A stretch of 64,000 bases of DNA from Vogesella indigofera (lineage in GTDB: Bacteria > Pseudomonadota > Gammaproteobacteria > Burkholderiales > Chromobacteriaceae): contig NZ_RBID01000013.1 of assembly GCF_003633895.1 (NCBI RefSeq), positions 248,001 through 312,000 of the forward strand. Direction: 5' to 3'. The position numbers were made by a program, and so were the translations under genes. Shown here piece by piece: positions 6,629 through 54,791 of this stretch (positions are counted from its first letter, which is position 1; every line of letters begins with the position of its first letter). The notes beneath the pieces were generated by a model. That model ran no database searches. It was not told the origin of the DNA and saw only the letters and a program-made list of their open reading frames with translations.

Positions 6629-6642
6629 TGCGGCCAACCTTG
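6629..6642 (+). repeat. 14-mer repeat, exact copy
   Basis: TGCGGCCAACCTTG in the short gap between the hexR stop and the pgi start. Confidence 0.85.
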
Positions 6643-11032: not shown

Positions 11033-12871
11033 ATGAGTCTGCATCCCGTTCTTGCTGCCGTTACCCAGCGCATCATCGAGCGTAGCCGCGCCACCCGCGC
11101 CACTTATCTGGCCCAGGCCCACGCCGCCGTGCGCCAGGGCAAGGTCGAGCGCGCCCACCTGTCCTGTACCAACCAGGCGCACGCCTTTGCCGCGATGCCG
11201 GACGGGATCAAGATTCACCTGAAAGAGTCGGTGCGCCCCAACCTGGCCATCGTTACCTCCTATAACGACATGCTGTCGGCACACCAGCCGCTGGAAACCT
11301 TCCCGGCGCTGCTGAAAGACGAAGCGCTGAAGGCCGGCGCCACCGCGCAGGTGGCCGGCGGCGTGCCGGCAATGTGCGACGGCGTGACGCAGGGCTTCGA
11401 GGGCATGGAGCTGTCGCTGTTCTCGCGCGACGTGATCGCGATGAGCACCGCCATCGCGCTGTCGCACCAGATGTTCGACGCCGCGCTGTACCTCGGCGTC
11501 TGCGACAAGATCGTGCCCGGCCTGTTGATCGGCGCGCTGTCCTTCGGCCACCTGCCGGCGCTGTTCGTGCCGGCCGGGCCGATGACCACCGGCATCTCCA
11601 ACGACGACAAGGCCAAGGTGCGCCAGCTGTTTGCCGAGGGCAAGGTTGGCCGCGACGCGCTGCTGGAGTCGGAGTCGGCGTCCTATCACGGTCCCGGCAC
11701 CTGCACCTTCTACGGCACCGCCAACTCCAACCAGATGCTGATGGAGATCATGGGCCTGCACCTGCCCGGCGCCGCCTTCGTCAACCCGAATACCCCGCTG
11801 CGCGAGGCGCTGACCCGCCACGCCGCCCGTGTCGCCGCCGAGATCAGCGCGCAGGGCTCGCGCTTCACCCCGATTTGCGACGTGATCGACGAGAAAGCCA
11901 TCGTCAACGGCATCGTAGGCCTGCTCGCCACCGGCGGCTCCACCAACCACACCCTGCACATCAATGCCATCGCCCGTGCCGCCGGCATCGATATCAACTG
12001 GGACGATTTCGACGAGCTGTCCGCGGTGGTGCCGCTGATCGTGCGCGCCTACCCCAACGGCAAGGCCGACGTGAACCACTTCCACGCCGCCGGCGGCATG
12101 GGCTTCGTGATCCGCGAGCTGCTGGATGCCGGCCTGCTGCACGACGACGTGACCACCGTGATGGGCAAGGGGCTGCGCGCGCACACCAGCGAAGCGTGGC
12201 TGGACGACGGCAAGCTGACCTGGCGCGCGGCGCCGGCAGCCAGCGGCGACGACGGCGTGCTGCGCACCGCGGCCAAGCCGTTCTCGCACGACGGCGGGCT
12301 GAAGGTGCTGACCGGCAACATCGGCCGCGCGGTGATCAAGGTCTCCGCGGTAAAAGCGGAACACCGCGTGGTGGAAGCGCCGGCGGTGGTGTTCCACGAC
12401 CAGAACGAACTCTTGGCCGCCTTCAAGCGCGGCGAGCTGGAAAAGGACTTTGTCGCGGTGATCCGCTTCCAGGGCCCGCGCGCCAACGGCATGCCGGAGC
12501 TGCACAAGCTGACGCCGCCGCTGGGCGTGCTGCAGGAACGCGGCTTCAAGGTGGCGCTGGTCACCGACGGCCGCATGTCCGGCGCCTCCGGCAAGGTACC
12601 GGCCGCCATCCACGTGTCGCCGGAAGCGCTGCTGGGCGGCGACATCGGCAAGGTACGGAACGGTGACCTGGTGCGGCTGGATGCCAACAGTGGCGAGCTG
12701 AGCATCCTGGTGGATGCCGCCGAGTGGGCGGCACGCGAACGCGCTGCGGCCAACCTTGAACAACACCAGCACGGCGTCGGCCGCGACCTGTTCGCCGGCA
12801 TGCGCCAGCAGGCCACCACCGCCGAGGAAGGCGCGATGACCTTCGCCCATCCGCTGTGGAGCAAGCCGTAA
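11033..12871 (+). CDS. edd: Phosphogluconate dehydratase
   Basis: Fe-S dehydratase converting 6-phosphogluconate to 2-keto-3-deoxy-6-phosphogluconate; 612 residues, close to E. coli Edd. IlvD/Edd family blocks: [20 protein letters not shown] with a cluster cysteine, [20 protein letters not shown] and [20 protein letters not shown]. The start [10 protein letters not shown] was chosen because family similarity begins there; the longer frame runs through the operator. No good ribosome site precedes it. It is followed by eda after an unusual 131-bp gap. Confidence 0.96.
12745..12758 (+). repeat. 14-mer repeat, exact copy in edd
   Basis: TGCGGCCAACCTTG read in the frame giving Ala-Ala-Asn-Leu near the edd C-terminus. 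Confidence 0.85.
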
Positions 12872-13002: not shown

Positions 13003-13629
13003 ATGGACGCACTGACTCTGCTACGCCAAGGCCCGGTTATGCCGGTGATCGTGGTCAACGACGCCGCGGTCGCGGTCGACCTCGCCCGCGCACTGGTCGC
13101 CGGCGGCATCCGCACCCTGGAAATCACGCTGCGCACCAAGGCGGCACTGGCGGCGATGCGCCGCATCCGCGACGAAGTGCCGGACGCCATCGTCGGCGCC
13201 GGCACCGTGCGCACCCGCGCCCACCTGGAAGCCGCGCTCGACGCCGGCGCCCAGTTCGGCATCAGCCCCGGCCTGACGCCGGAGCTGGCCGCCGCCGCGC
13301 GCGCGTCCGGCGTGCCGTTCATCCCCGGCGTGGCCACCCCGTCCGAGGCGATGCACGCGCAGGACGAAGGCTTCAACATCCTCAAGCTGTTCCCGGCCGA
13401 GGCGGTCGGCGGCATCAAGCTGCTGAAGGCGCTGGCCGGCCCGCTGCCGGAACTGCGCTTCTGCCCCACCGGCGGCATCGACATCAACAGCGCGCCGAAC
13501 TACCTGGCGCTGCCCAACGTGCTGTGCGTCGGCGGCAGCTGGCTGACCCCGGACGACGCCATCGCCGCCCAGGACTGGGCGCGCATCACCGCGCTGGCGC
13601 AACAGGCCAGCGCGCTGGCGGTGCGTTAA
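13003..13629 (+). CDS. eda: KDPG aldolase (2-keto-3-deoxy-6-phosphogluconate aldolase)
   Basis: Cleaves 2-keto-3-deoxy-6-phosphogluconate to pyruvate and glyceraldehyde 3-phosphate; 208 residues. Active-site segments: [17 protein letters not shown], the Schiff-base lysine in [11 protein letters not shown], and [22 protein letters not shown] precedes the ATG. The TAA stop is the target site of a MITE-like element that begins immediately after it, placing about 175 bp between the stop and the terminator hairpin. Confidence 0.96.
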
Positions 13630-13772
13630 GAGCCTGTTCAATGCCTGCTGCGCGTCGTGGAACGTTACACGGTGAGTACGCCTTCGGAATGCTCATTGAC
13701 CCCATGTCAACTCCGCTTCCTCAGTCGTTTTCGCCTTGTCTCGCTCTAGCTCGCGAGACCTTGAACAGGTTC
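13630..13772. mobile_element. MITE-like element, copy A, inserted at the eda stop codon
   Basis: 143 bp without coding capacity. Ends: GAGCCTGTTCAA on the left and TTGAACAGGTTC on the right (11 of 12 paired). The flanking triplets are TAA (13627-13629, the eda stop) and TAA (13773-13775), a 3-bp TNA target duplication. The minus strand of 13704-13746 carries the internal block shared with copies B and C (GAGACAAGGCGAAAACG...). A TNA duplication is typical of IS5-type transposases; no transposase is present here. Confidence 0.8.
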
Positions 13773-13803
13773 TAAGCCGCAGACCGACTCTCCCGTTTTT
13801 CAC

Positions 13804-16458: not shown

Positions 16459-17703
16459 ATGAAACTGAAACGTCTGAGTGCGGCCGTGCTGGCAGCCAGC
16501 CTGTTCCCTGTTGCCGCCCAGGCCGCCGACGTGGAAGTCCTGCACTGGTGGACCTCCGGTGGCGAAGCCAAATCCGTCGCCGAACTGAAAAAGATGATGA
16601 GCGCCCAGGGCGTGACGTGGAAGGATTTTGCCGTCGCCGGTGGCGGCGGTGACAACGCGATGACCGCGCTGAAGACGCGCGTGGTGTCCGGCAACCCGCC
16701 GACCGCCGCCCAGATCAAGGGCCCGGCGATCCAGGAGTGGGGCGCCGAAGGCGTGCTGGCCGACATCGATGCCGTAGCCCGCGCAGGCAACTGGGACAAG
16801 CAGCTGCCGCCGGTGGTCAGCCGCGTGATGAAGTACAAGGGCAAGTACGTGGCCGCACCGGTCAACGTACACCGCGTGAACTGGCTGTGGGCCAACCCGG
16901 AAGCGTTCAAGAAGGCCGGCGCCACGGTGCCGAAGACCTGGCCGGAATTCTTTGCCGCCGCCGACAAGCTGAAAAAGGCCGGCATCCAGCCTATCGCCCA
17001 CGGCGGCCAGCCGTGGCAGGACGCCACCCTGTTCGAATCGGTGGCACTGGGCGTCGGCGGTGCCGACTACTACCAGAAGGCGTTCGTGAAGCTGGACAAG
17101 GCCACCCTCGCCGGCCCGACCACCGTCAAGGTGTTCGAAACCCTGGGCAAGGTGAAGACCTACATCGACAAGGGCGCCGCCGGCCGCGACTGGAACCTGG
17201 CCACCGCCATGGTGATCAACGGCAAGGCCGGCATGCAGTTCATGGGCGACTGGGCGAAGGGTGAATTCACCGCCGCCGGCAAGGTACCGGGCAAGGACTT
17301 CATCTGCACCGACGCACCGGGCACCCAGAATGCGTTCACCTTCAACATCGACAGCCTGGCGATGTTCCAGCAGAAAAACCCGGCTGCGGTACAGGCCCAG
17401 GCCAAGCTGGCCGCCACCGTGATGAGCCCGGCGTTCCAGGAAGTGTTCAACCTCAACAAGGGCTCGATCCCGGCCCGTCTCGACACGCCGATGGCCAAGT
17501 TTGACGACTGCGCCAAGAAGTCCAGCTTCGACATGAGCGCCGCATCCAAGGGCAGCAAGCTGGTGCCGAGCTTCGCCCACAAGATGGCGATGCCGTCCGC
17601 CACCGAAGGCGCGATGGTGGACGTGATCTCGCAGTTCATGAACTCCAGCATGACCGCGCAACAGGCCACCGAACGTCTGGCCCGTGCCGGCGCCGTGCGC
17701 TAA
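16459..17703 (+). CDS. gtsA: Glucose/mannose-type ABC transporter substrate-binding protein
   Basis: Periplasmic sugar-binding protein, 414 residues, with a signal peptide (LSAAVLAASLFPVAAQAA) and the strongly conserved start of the mature protein VEVLHWWTSGGEAKSVAELK, as in Pseudomonas GtsA. FAVAGGGGDNAMTALKTR and GPAIQEWGAEGVLADID also match. AAGGAGAG precedes the ATG. It is the first gene of gtsABCD, and a HexR-like site lies upstream. Its TAA stop is the target of MITE copy B, which now separates it from gtsB by 265 bp. Confidence 0.92.
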   Translation: MKLKRLSAAVLAASLFPVAAQAADVEVLHWWTSGGEAKSVAELKKMMSAQGVTWKDFAVAGGGGDNAMTALKTRVVSGNPPTAAQIKGPAIQEWGAEGVLADIDAVARAGNWDKQLPPVVSRVMKYKGKYVAAPVNVHRVNWLWANPEAFKKAGATVPKTWPEFFAAADKLKKAGIQPIAHGGQPWQDATLFESVALGVGGADYYQKAFVKLDKATLAGPTTVKVFETLGKVKTYIDKGAAGRDWNLATAMVINGKAGMQFMGDWAKGEFTAAGKVPGKDFICTDAPGTQNAFTFNIDSLAMFQQKNPAAVQAQAKLAATVMSPAFQEVFNLNKGSIPARLDTPMAKFDDCAKKSSFDMSAASKGSKLVPSFAHKMAMPSATEGAMVDVISQFMNSSMTAQQATERLARAGAVR

Positions 17704-17855
17704 GAGCGTATTCACGATCTAGCGAGCTCGCGCGAGACAAGGCGAAAACGGTTGGGGAAGCGGAGTTTACAAGCAGTAAATGCGCAGACCTGAATCGTAC
17801 TTAACGCCGTATCGCCCCAGTTGAAATCAAATCGCAGCAGATCGTGAACAGGCTC
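17704..17855. mobile_element. MITE-like element, copy B, inserted at the gtsA stop codon
   Basis: 152 bp, non-coding. Left end GAGCGTATTCACGATCT; right end is the complement of GAGCCTGTTCACGATCT (15 of 17 paired). Flanked by TAA at 17701-17703 (gtsA stop) and TAA at 17856-17858. The plus strand of about 17727-17766 carries the shared block GAGACAAGGCGAAAACGG and GGAAGCGGAGTTTAC. It lies inside the operon between gtsA and gtsB. Confidence 0.85.
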
Positions 17856-17968
17856 TAAGCAGCGTGTGATCCGCGGCACCGGTGGCCCCCCGCCGCCGGT
17901 CTGACCGGTCCGCCCCAGGCGGGCGGACCGGCTGCCGTGTTTTTGTACCGAGACAGCAAGGAATCATC

Positions 17969-44857: not shown

Positions 44858-44870
44858 GCGGCCAACCTTG
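44857..44870 (+). repeat. 14-mer repeat, exact copy
   Basis: TGCGGCCAACCTTG directly on the tal terminator T-run, followed by GCCGCC, so it is nearly palindromic. Confidence 0.85.
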
Positions 44871-53480: not shown

Positions 53481-53576
53481 GGAGAGATCCGCTTCTGTAA
53501 CTGGTTTAGGCGCGCCGGCGGCGCGCAGGGGCAGAATTGTACACCTTGCGGCAGCGCTGCCGCGTCTGCCGGCTCA

Positions 53577-53721
53577 GCGCCTGTTCACGATTTGCCGCAG
53601 CAGATCGGAACGGCGCGAGACGGCGTTGCAAACGGCCTCGGCAGGCGGGTTGATCCCGGCGTAAACGCCGCTTGTTCAGCCGTTGTCGCCTGGTCTCGCG
53701 TGAGCGATCGTGAACACGCGC
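53577..53721. mobile_element. MITE-like element, copy C, inserted at the rarD stop codon
   Basis: 145 bp, non-coding. Left end GCGCCTGTTCACGAT; right end is the complement of GCGCGTGTTCACGAT (14 of 15). Flanks: TCA at 53574-53576 and TCA at 53722-53724; the latter is the rarD stop (TGA on the minus strand). The minus strand of about 53658-53700 carries the shared internal block. It lies in the rarD-ftsK gap. Confidence 0.8.
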
Positions 53722-54636
53722 TCAGTGCGCCGGGCCGGGCGACTGTTTGCGCTGCTGGCGCAGGGTGTGCGCACCGGTGAGCAACACCGCCAGCCAGATC
53801 GGGCCGTAGGTCAGCAGCCGGTCGGCGGACAGCGGCTCGCCGAGGAAGGTGATCGCCAGCAGGAACAACAGCGCCGGCTCGACATAGCCCAGCAGCCCCC
53901 ACAGCCCCATCGGCAGCAGGTGGCTGGCGGTGATGTTGAGCAGCAGCGCCACCGAGCTGATCAGGCCGAGGCCAGCCAGCAGCGGCCAGAACAGCGGCTG
54001 TGCCAGCACGCCCCAGCCGGCCTCGCCCTGCAGGTAGAGCAGCCCCAGCGCCACCGGGAAGATCAGCATCATCTCCAGCGCGAAACCGGACACCGGCTCC
54101 ATCTTGCTGATGCGGCGCAGCACGAAATACGGCGGGTAGCCAAGCACCACCAGCAGCGTCGGCCAGGCGATGGCACGCGTCAGCCACAGTTCGTGCAGCA
54201 CGCCCAGCAGCGCCAGCGCCACCGCGATGCACTGCAGCCGGTACATGCGCTCGCCGTACAGCACGCGGCCAACCAGCACCATCACCAGCGGCGTCAGGAA
54301 GTAACCCATCGACACCGCCACCGTCTGGCCGTTCAGCGGCGCCCACAGGAACACCCACAGCTGCACCGCGTTCAGTGCCGCCATCAGCGGCACCAGCGCC
54401 CACAGCGCCGGTTCGCGCACGAAGCGGCGCAGCAGCTCGGCCAGCGCCTGGCGCTTGCGGGTCAGGTGCACGATCAGCAGCACGCCGGGCAGCGTCCAGA
54501 TCATGCGCCAGGCGAAGATGGCCAGCCCGTCCAGCGGCCGCAGCAGGGTGGTATAGCCGGACAGCACGGCAAACAGCAGCGAGGCGGCGAGCGAGAACGC
54601 GATTCCGCGTCCGGACGGGGCAACAGGGTGCGACAT
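53722..54636 (-). CDS. rarD: RarD-type EamA transporter
   Basis: 304-residue inner-membrane protein with ten predicted helices (two EamA repeats), of the RarD subfamily (chloramphenicol-sensitivity protein). Conserved stretches: WRMIWTLPGVLLIVHL, NGQTVAVSMGYFLTPL and LGYVEPALLFLLAITFLGEPL. The start is at MSHPVAPSGRGIAF. The substrate is unknown. Its stop codon is the target of MITE copy C. Confidence 0.9.
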   Translation of the reverse strand: MSHPVAPSGRGIAFSLAASLLFAVLSGYTTLLRPLDGLAIFAWRMIWTLPGVLLIVHLTRKRQALAELLRRFVREPALWALVPLMAALNAVQLWVFLWAPLNGQTVAVSMGYFLTPLVMVLVGRVLYGERMYRLQCIAVALALLGVLHELWLTRAIAWPTLLVVLGYPPYFVLRRISKMEPVSGFALEMMLIFPVALGLLYLQGEAGWGVLAQPLFWPLLAGLGLISSVALLLNITASHLLPMGLWGLLGYVEPALLFLLAITFLGEPLSADRLLTYGPIWLAVLLTGAHTLRQQRKQSPGPAH

Positions 54637-54791
54637 GACAAAACCGTTCGATGGATGGGGGTAGCCCGCTATCCTGCCCGTGCCGCAGCGCAGCAGCAAG
54701 CGCCGGCTGCGCCCGGCACCGCCAGCGCGGCCTTCATGCGCTCAGAATACGGCCTGCCGTCGCCCTGCCCGCCGCGGTCGGCGCGACGGAA

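Follow-up and report, generated by a model that had tools for sequence, protein, structure and literature searches.

What places a short mobile element exactly at the stop codon of a neighboring gene? The 64-kb stretch of DNA analyzed here (the window) raises this question three times over. Each of the three element copies that it holds (143-152 bp) is bounded by 3-bp TNA repeats, and one of the two repeats is the stop codon of the gene next to it. An initial annotation had described this arrangement, and direct reading of all three loci confirms it. The core shared by the copies, GAGACAAGGCGAAAACGG, occurs three times in the window at up to 3 mismatches, against 0.03 occurrences expected, and the window gave no match to Rfam at gathering scores. 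The features are as follows, with the basis of each in brackets.

13003..13629, + strand: eda (KDPG/KHG aldolase), intact gene (NCBIfam)
13627..13629, + strand: TAA, eda stop and proximal copy of the 3-bp duplication (sequence; element-free site with a single TAA in genome G011)
13630..13772, - strand: MITE copy 1, 143 bp, R end next to the stop (sequence; profile score 95.8 bits)
13773..13775, + strand: TAA, distal duplication copy of MITE copy 1 (sequence)
17701..17703, + strand: TAA, stop of the sugar-binding protein gene (earlier named gtsA) and proximal duplication copy (element-free in G005, G011 and G003, with a single TAA)
17704..17855, + strand: MITE copy 2, 152 bp, L end next to the stop (sequence; profile score 115.5 bits)
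17856..17858, + strand: TAA, distal duplication copy of MITE copy 2 (sequence)
53574..53576, + strand: TCA, distal duplication copy of MITE copy 3 (sequence)
53577..53721, - strand: MITE copy 3, 145 bp, L end next to the rarD stop (sequence; profile score 93.8 bits)
53722..53724, - strand: TGA, rarD stop (TCA on the + strand) and proximal duplication copy (element-free in G012 and G003, with a single TGA)
53722..54699, - strand: rarD (EamA family transporter), intact gene, start codon not settled (NCBIfam)

The identities given to eda and rarD agree with NCBIfam. The third gene is a carbohydrate ABC transporter substrate-binding gene: its product falls into carbohydrate ABC transporter substrate-binding families, with Pfam above cut-off and the NCBIfam models below their cut-offs, and a permease gene comes after it. 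The name gtsA itself is not backed by these domain matches.

A separate repeat, the 12-mer AAGGTTGGCCGC, occupies 23 places in the window (e.g. 6630-6641, 11642-11653 and 44858-44869). It occurs 1050 times in the genome that contains the window, compared with 0 for the reversed control, and 485-1050 times per genome in 13 genomes of the genus. It looks like a DNA uptake sequence; one published paper, which does not mention Vogesella in the relevant part, reports none that is obvious in the genomes of Chromobacterium, Pseudogulbenkiania and Laribacter (PMC3630211).

Most element copies across the genome abut stop codons

A profile built from the sequence of 32 copies was searched against the Vogesella genome that contains the window (67% G+C). 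With the best 150 of 1448 candidates scored, this gave 136 matches. Of these, 28 fell on the other strand of palindromic elements already counted and were dropped, so that at least 108 places remain; two of them, C2:362655 and C2:362815, could be parts of a single interrupted element. A BLAST search with copy 2 found at least 44 matches in the same genome, with 40 of 102 candidates scored. No match to the element was found in a plasmid collection by a distant-mode search or in viral contigs by an exact 26-mer search.

These copies have the anatomy of a MITE. They are short (mostly 135-154 bp, and 140-153 bp in most of the 32 aligned copies), have no coding capacity, and carry terminal inverted repeats whose ends pair in the consensus fold. 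They are present in multiple copies (at least 108 places), are flanked by a TNA target duplication that is identical on both sides in 45 cases, and have empty counterparts at all three window loci. The duplication is TNA, not the TA dinucleotide of Correia and ERIC elements.

We compared the copies with genes predicted by a codon-based caller trained on the window and seeded on three window genes. In 97 of the 108 copies, a predicted stop lies within -12 to +6 bp of an element boundary. The stop coincides exactly with the duplication in 81 copies, which makes 82 stop sites, one copy having stops on both sides. The initial description, that of a MITE-like element that duplicates TNA on a stop codon and leaves a stop in place, therefore holds genome-wide. 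It had been suggested along with that description that genomic copies be counted against a background of TNA sites. Here, 42 of the 45 copies with identical duplications sit on a stop, while stops make up 13.6% of the noncoding and stop TNA sites in the sampled sequence (binomial p ~4e-33 for stop residence). None of the 11 copies found off stops breaks a called gene after excision. At the 82 stop sites, the distal duplication is still TAA or TGA in 48 and mostly altered in the others, e.g. to CAA (6) or CGA (5). The median profile score is 104.8 bits for copies on stops versus 75.6 bits for the rest.

Related repeats in other bacteria

Several known repeats share some of these traits, as far as the cited passages describe them. 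Correia elements (CREE/NEMIS) of Neisseria are alike in size class, high copy number, terminal inverted repeats and a base-paired transcript, but they have a 5'-TA-3' terminus and 24-bp repeats where the element here has a TNA duplication (PMC2229807). The ERIC/RU-1 elements of enterobacteria are similar in size (~127 bp), form a hairpin and sometimes lie at gene 3' ends; however, they also have a TA terminus, and the fusion at ECA3499, which removes a stop codon, is the opposite of what is seen here (PMC2229807, PMC2759123). QMITE2 of Coxiella burnetii (150-190 bp) lies mainly in 3' untranslated regions but, unlike our element, has variable direct repeats of 7-11 nt and is not tied to the stop codon itself in the account given (PMC5896051). 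Phrase searches of one open library of papers, which would miss other wording, returned no report of elements that target or duplicate stop codons.

Insertion sites in sister genomes

A comparison with empty sites in sister strains had also been proposed, and it bears out the boundaries at all three window loci, each of which is empty in sister genomes and has one stop codon there. At the eda site, genome G011 reads TAA-GCCGCAGAC where the window reads TAA-element-TAA-GCCGCAGAC, and the site is element-free in G005, G003 and G012 as well. The site at the substrate-binding gene is empty, with one TAA, in G005, G011 and G003. In G012 (L279), the element is present there and has lost its right end and the distal duplication, while the stop copy is retained. 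The rarD site is empty, with one TGA, in G012 and G003.

In G000 and G011, the element sits at the rarD stop (L228-L231; window 53574-53724) in one orientation; in G005, the same stop holds an element of a different subfamily that points the other way. This suggests two independent uses of one stop codon, with replacement or inversion as further possibilities.

Partner insertion sequences

The element has no transposase, and a search for the insertion sequence with matching ends had been proposed as well. The initial annotation had pointed to IS5-type elements on the strength of the TNA duplication, and this relation is upheld: IS5-family (IS1031-type) copies of about 850 bp share both ends and TNA duplication with the MITE. 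Of the family's 61 genomes, 28 encode transposases with PF13340 and 11 carry the partner IS type, which is absent from all 13 in the genus. IS copies with the ends of the MITE lie in other genera of the family (L198, L199 and three more). Four of the five clean-ended copies measure 848-861 bp (L198, L199, L200/L255 and L257 are among these elements), and L254 measures 985 bp. Their ends are 17 bp long, read GAACCTGTTCAAAGTCT or GAACCTGTTCACGATCT, begin with GA and are flanked by TNA; the two end flavors of the MITE (CACGATC and CAAAGTC) parallel these two. The duplications are TTA/TTA or TAA/TAA at L253, L254 and L256, and the two sides differ at L255 and L257. Each partner has two overlapping frames, with PF13340 and PF01609, and the second frame scores above the cut-off of the IS5 model NF033580; judging from the sequence, a frameshift probably joins the two.

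This anatomy can be compared with that of ISLrh, a member of the IS1031 subgroup that is described as 857 bp long, with 17-bp ends, GAACCTGTCTAGTATCT, a TNA target and two frames (PMC12016507). The partner IS resembles it in the 3-bp TNA duplication, the 17-bp ends, the length (~850 versus 857 bp) and the two overlapping frames; in the element of genome G057 discussed below, the ends read GAACCTGTCTAAAGTCT. The window element differs from ISLrh in having no transposase, and the part of the ISLrh report drawn on here does not mention stop residence (PMC12016507).

Within the genus, a search of the 13 genomes for a transposase with matching ends found no partner IS. Two PF01609 transposases in the genome of the window, and the PF13340 transposases of two of the 13 genomes (G003 and G011), were considered as partners and rejected, as neither group is bounded by a pair of ends that matches. 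Active transposition was not observed. We infer that the window MITE was mobilized by IS1031-type transposases that came from outside the genus or have since been lost from it.

In two genomes (G026 and G071), MITE-sized intervals adjoin IS copies, with a TNA common to both (L264, L267, L268 and L272-L275). As the element starts with G and ends with C, its insertion makes new C-TNA-G edges, from which arrays could follow.

The target motif and its supply

The bases around the duplicated stops depart from those around control stops in the same genome. C precedes the stop at 77% of the 82 stop sites versus 55% of control stops, and G follows it at 68% versus 45%. Given these two excesses, the preferred target is C-TNA-G. 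The same motif is found in G057, where 40 of 57 copies have the C before and 23 of 57 have both C and G flanks. Since most copies in that genome lie off stops, C-TNA-G is not a by-product of stop codons.

How often does this motif fall on a stop codon? After excision of the elements, the window contains 44 C-TNA-G sites in coding sequence, 15 at stops and 10 in noncoding sequence, such that stops are 15 of the 25 sites outside gene bodies. In gaps free of insertions, the ratio of stop to noncoding C-TNA-G sites is 13:2 between convergent genes, 22:12 between tandem genes and 0:7 between divergent genes. From these counts it follows that stops are the main supply of C-TNA-G once genes are closed to insertion.

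The C-TNA-G context is itself found at 15 of 51 TNA stops in the window, compared with 10 of 254 noncoding TNA sites, an unusual stop-codon context in a GC-rich genome.

Stop residence along a gradient of G+C content

The exact 30-base core is present in V. fluminis, V. margarita, V. alkaliphila, Chromobacterium haemolyticum, Aquitalea and Pseudogulbenkiania (47 stretches). A profile search of these 47 named 8-kb stretches gave 55 matches, from which 3 on the opposite strand and 2 cut by an edge were dropped. Among the 50 copies left, a predicted stop adjoins 38 but not 11 others (one of them with a masked end), and 1 lies too close to an edge; the subset with identical duplications is on a stop in 21 of 23 cases. 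Common descent with the genome of the window probably accounts for many of these copies, so the set is not fully independent.

The profile also matches in two genomes from other families of the same order, G057 (at least 150 copies) and G049 (14 copies). Of the 11 copies examined in G049 (61% G+C), 7 sit exactly on a called stop; an eighth, with poor ends, also abuts one. G057 (54.8% G+C) is different: a called stop is abutted by 17 of 57 copies in the lenient window and by 7 of 57 exactly, where gene calls span 63% of the sequence, and an open frame of any kind of 80 codons ends at the duplication in 9 of 57. Exact residence on stops thus falls from 81 of 108 copies at 67% G+C to 7 of 11 at 61% and 7 of 57 at 55% (Fisher p ~1e-15 for the genome of the window versus G057, computed with the 82 stop sites). 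The C-TNA-G background in G057, which includes sites made by the elements themselves as these were not excised, comprises 232 coding, 11 stop and 222 noncoding sites. Where noncoding C-TNA-G sites are plentiful, then, the elements use them, and the direction of this effect is clear. The element of G057 is a 140-bp relative, present in at least 150 copies at 55% G+C, with ends (GAACCTGTCTAAAGTCT) close to those of ISLrh.

A gradient over three genomes allows target choice to be told apart from selection. With 7 of 57 copies on stops in G057, stop residence reflects a GC-rich host and is not a property of the element. The claim that the element inserts exactly at stop codons accordingly stands as a description of the outcome in GC-rich hosts and falls as a description of the element, the target of which is C-TNA-G. 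Likewise, target choice and selection had been offered as alternatives, either of which would do; the counts call for both (15 of 25 C-TNA-G sites at stops in the window, and 7 of 57 copies on them in G057). That most G057 copies lie off stops also lowers the standing of a reading in which the stop codon is recognized, and stop codons as such are probably not what the element recognizes.

Are elements directed to gene ends?

A related possibility is that insertion is directed to gene ends, with the complex drawn to stops or to transcribed 3' ends, e.g. via translation or transcription termination. We regard this as improbable, although several counts lean toward it. We estimated for each gap how many copies should lie at stops, using context weights that were derived from the insertions themselves and make the expectations partly circular, and leaving out copies for which reconstruction gave no exact TNA stop. 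In convergent gaps, 44 of 48 copies are at stops versus 37.3 expected, and in tandem gaps, 46 of 51 versus 27.1. Within 30 bp of the stop, the values are 44 of 45 versus 39.6 (convergent) and 46 of 47 versus 40.5 (tandem). Among copies at strict C-TNA-G sites, 42 of 44 are on stops, compared with 15 of 25 available sites as counted in the window. A modest excess over availability therefore remains. Purifying selection on promoters could produce an excess in tandem gaps, and promoter avoidance can account for part of it there, but not in convergent gaps. G057 shows a similar tendency, with exact stops at 7 of 57 copies versus 11 of 233 C-TNA-G sites outside genes (p 0.06), and the occupation of one rarD stop in G000/G011 and, by another subfamily in the opposite orientation, in G005 is what directed insertion would also give.

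Against this stands G057 itself, where 7 of 57 copies lie exactly on a called stop and 17 of 57 fall in the lenient window. The full-length IS copies point the same way: of the five with clean ends, L256 clearly and L255 probably interrupts a called gene, and none is on a called stop, a comparison that is weak because an uncalled 128-codon frame ends at the duplication of L257.

Hairpin structure and orientation

The element consensus is predicted to fold as one near full-length hairpin. Across 80 copies, the mean MFE is -59.6 kcal/mol and the mean z is -4.6 versus mononucleotide shuffles. When these copies are placed on the consensus structure, 84% of cells pair and double changes are found in 19 of 52 pairs; double-change cells number 134 on the 52 pairs versus a mean of 68 and a maximum of 87 in shuffled data. 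These pairing counts use a structure taken from the copies' own consensus, and the statistics ignore kinship. RNAalifold, given the same 80 copies, returned no structure in the F orientation and a weak one in R. As modeled, the hairpin may serve in transposition, in transcripts, or in neither.

Orientation depends on the type of gap. Among 93 copies with one abutting stop, the end next to the stop is R for 35 of 43 copies in convergent gaps (35 R : 8 F; 21 of 23 with identical duplications) versus 27 of 50 in tandem gaps (27 R : 23 F; 8 of 20), with a Fisher p of 0.008 for all copies and 0.0007 for those with identical duplications. The copies in the named stretches show a similar pattern by eye. 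One could read from this that, over and above the C-TNA-G motif, gene ends themselves guide transposition, with a preference for the stops of transcribed genes and a fixed polarity between convergent genes (35/43; 21/23), and that the element has evolved toward a niche in which its insertion repairs itself. We would give this reading a slim chance.

A further possibility, and one that we think unlikely, is that the hairpin is kept by the host as a 3' UTR, be it as a terminator, an mRNA stabilizer or an RNase III site, and that useless copies elsewhere are lost. The strength of the predicted hairpin (mean MFE -59.6, z -4.6) and its 134 double-change cells against a mean of 68 would fit such a role, as would the closer agreement of on-stop copies with the model (median 104.8 versus 75.6 bits) and the orientation rule in convergent gaps (35 R : 8 F); ERIC in Yersinia is described as affecting the stability of flanking mRNA, in the part of the source cited (PMC2229807). 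However, the RNAalifold result is null or weak while the structure that was counted came from the consensus of the same copies, tandem gaps show no preference in orientation (27 R : 23 F), and the sites are empty in close relatives, from which it follows that no host gene studied here needs the element. Nor does the element have a clear U-tract, which speaks against a terminator in particular.

Discussion

We consider it likely that stop residence results mostly from four things acting together: a C-TNA-G target, a high G+C content, compactly arranged genes and purifying selection. The element would be a non-autonomous MITE of the IS1031 type (IS5 family). Its anatomy suggests that its insertion, at C-TNA-G palindromes and with duplication of the TNA, depends on a transposase supplied in trans. 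In this compact genome with 67% G+C, the C-TNA-G sites outside genes are mostly stops (TAA or TGA, with C before and G after). Insertions in genes, and probably those in promoters, would be removed by purifying selection. Insertions at stops persist since, as the empty and filled sites show, duplication gives the gene an intact stop at its end and puts a second copy beyond the element. Later, selection on the protein end would keep the stop copy while the distal copy drifts, a pattern visible at the 82 stop sites. Judged by sequence, the copies appear to form a new family of IS1031-type MITEs, with high copy number in part of Vogesella and a scattered presence in its family and order.

For the host, the outcome is that about 90% of some hundred insertions lie at stops with the protein unharmed. 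An element transcribed with its host gene would, by the predicted fold, place a long RNA hairpin right after the stop. If such hairpins affect mRNA, dozens of genes would have an interchangeable 3' UTR that is absent from sister species. More generally, positional enrichment need not mean target recognition, and the element offers a natural case in which a short target motif and base composition make stop codons the main harmless landing sites.
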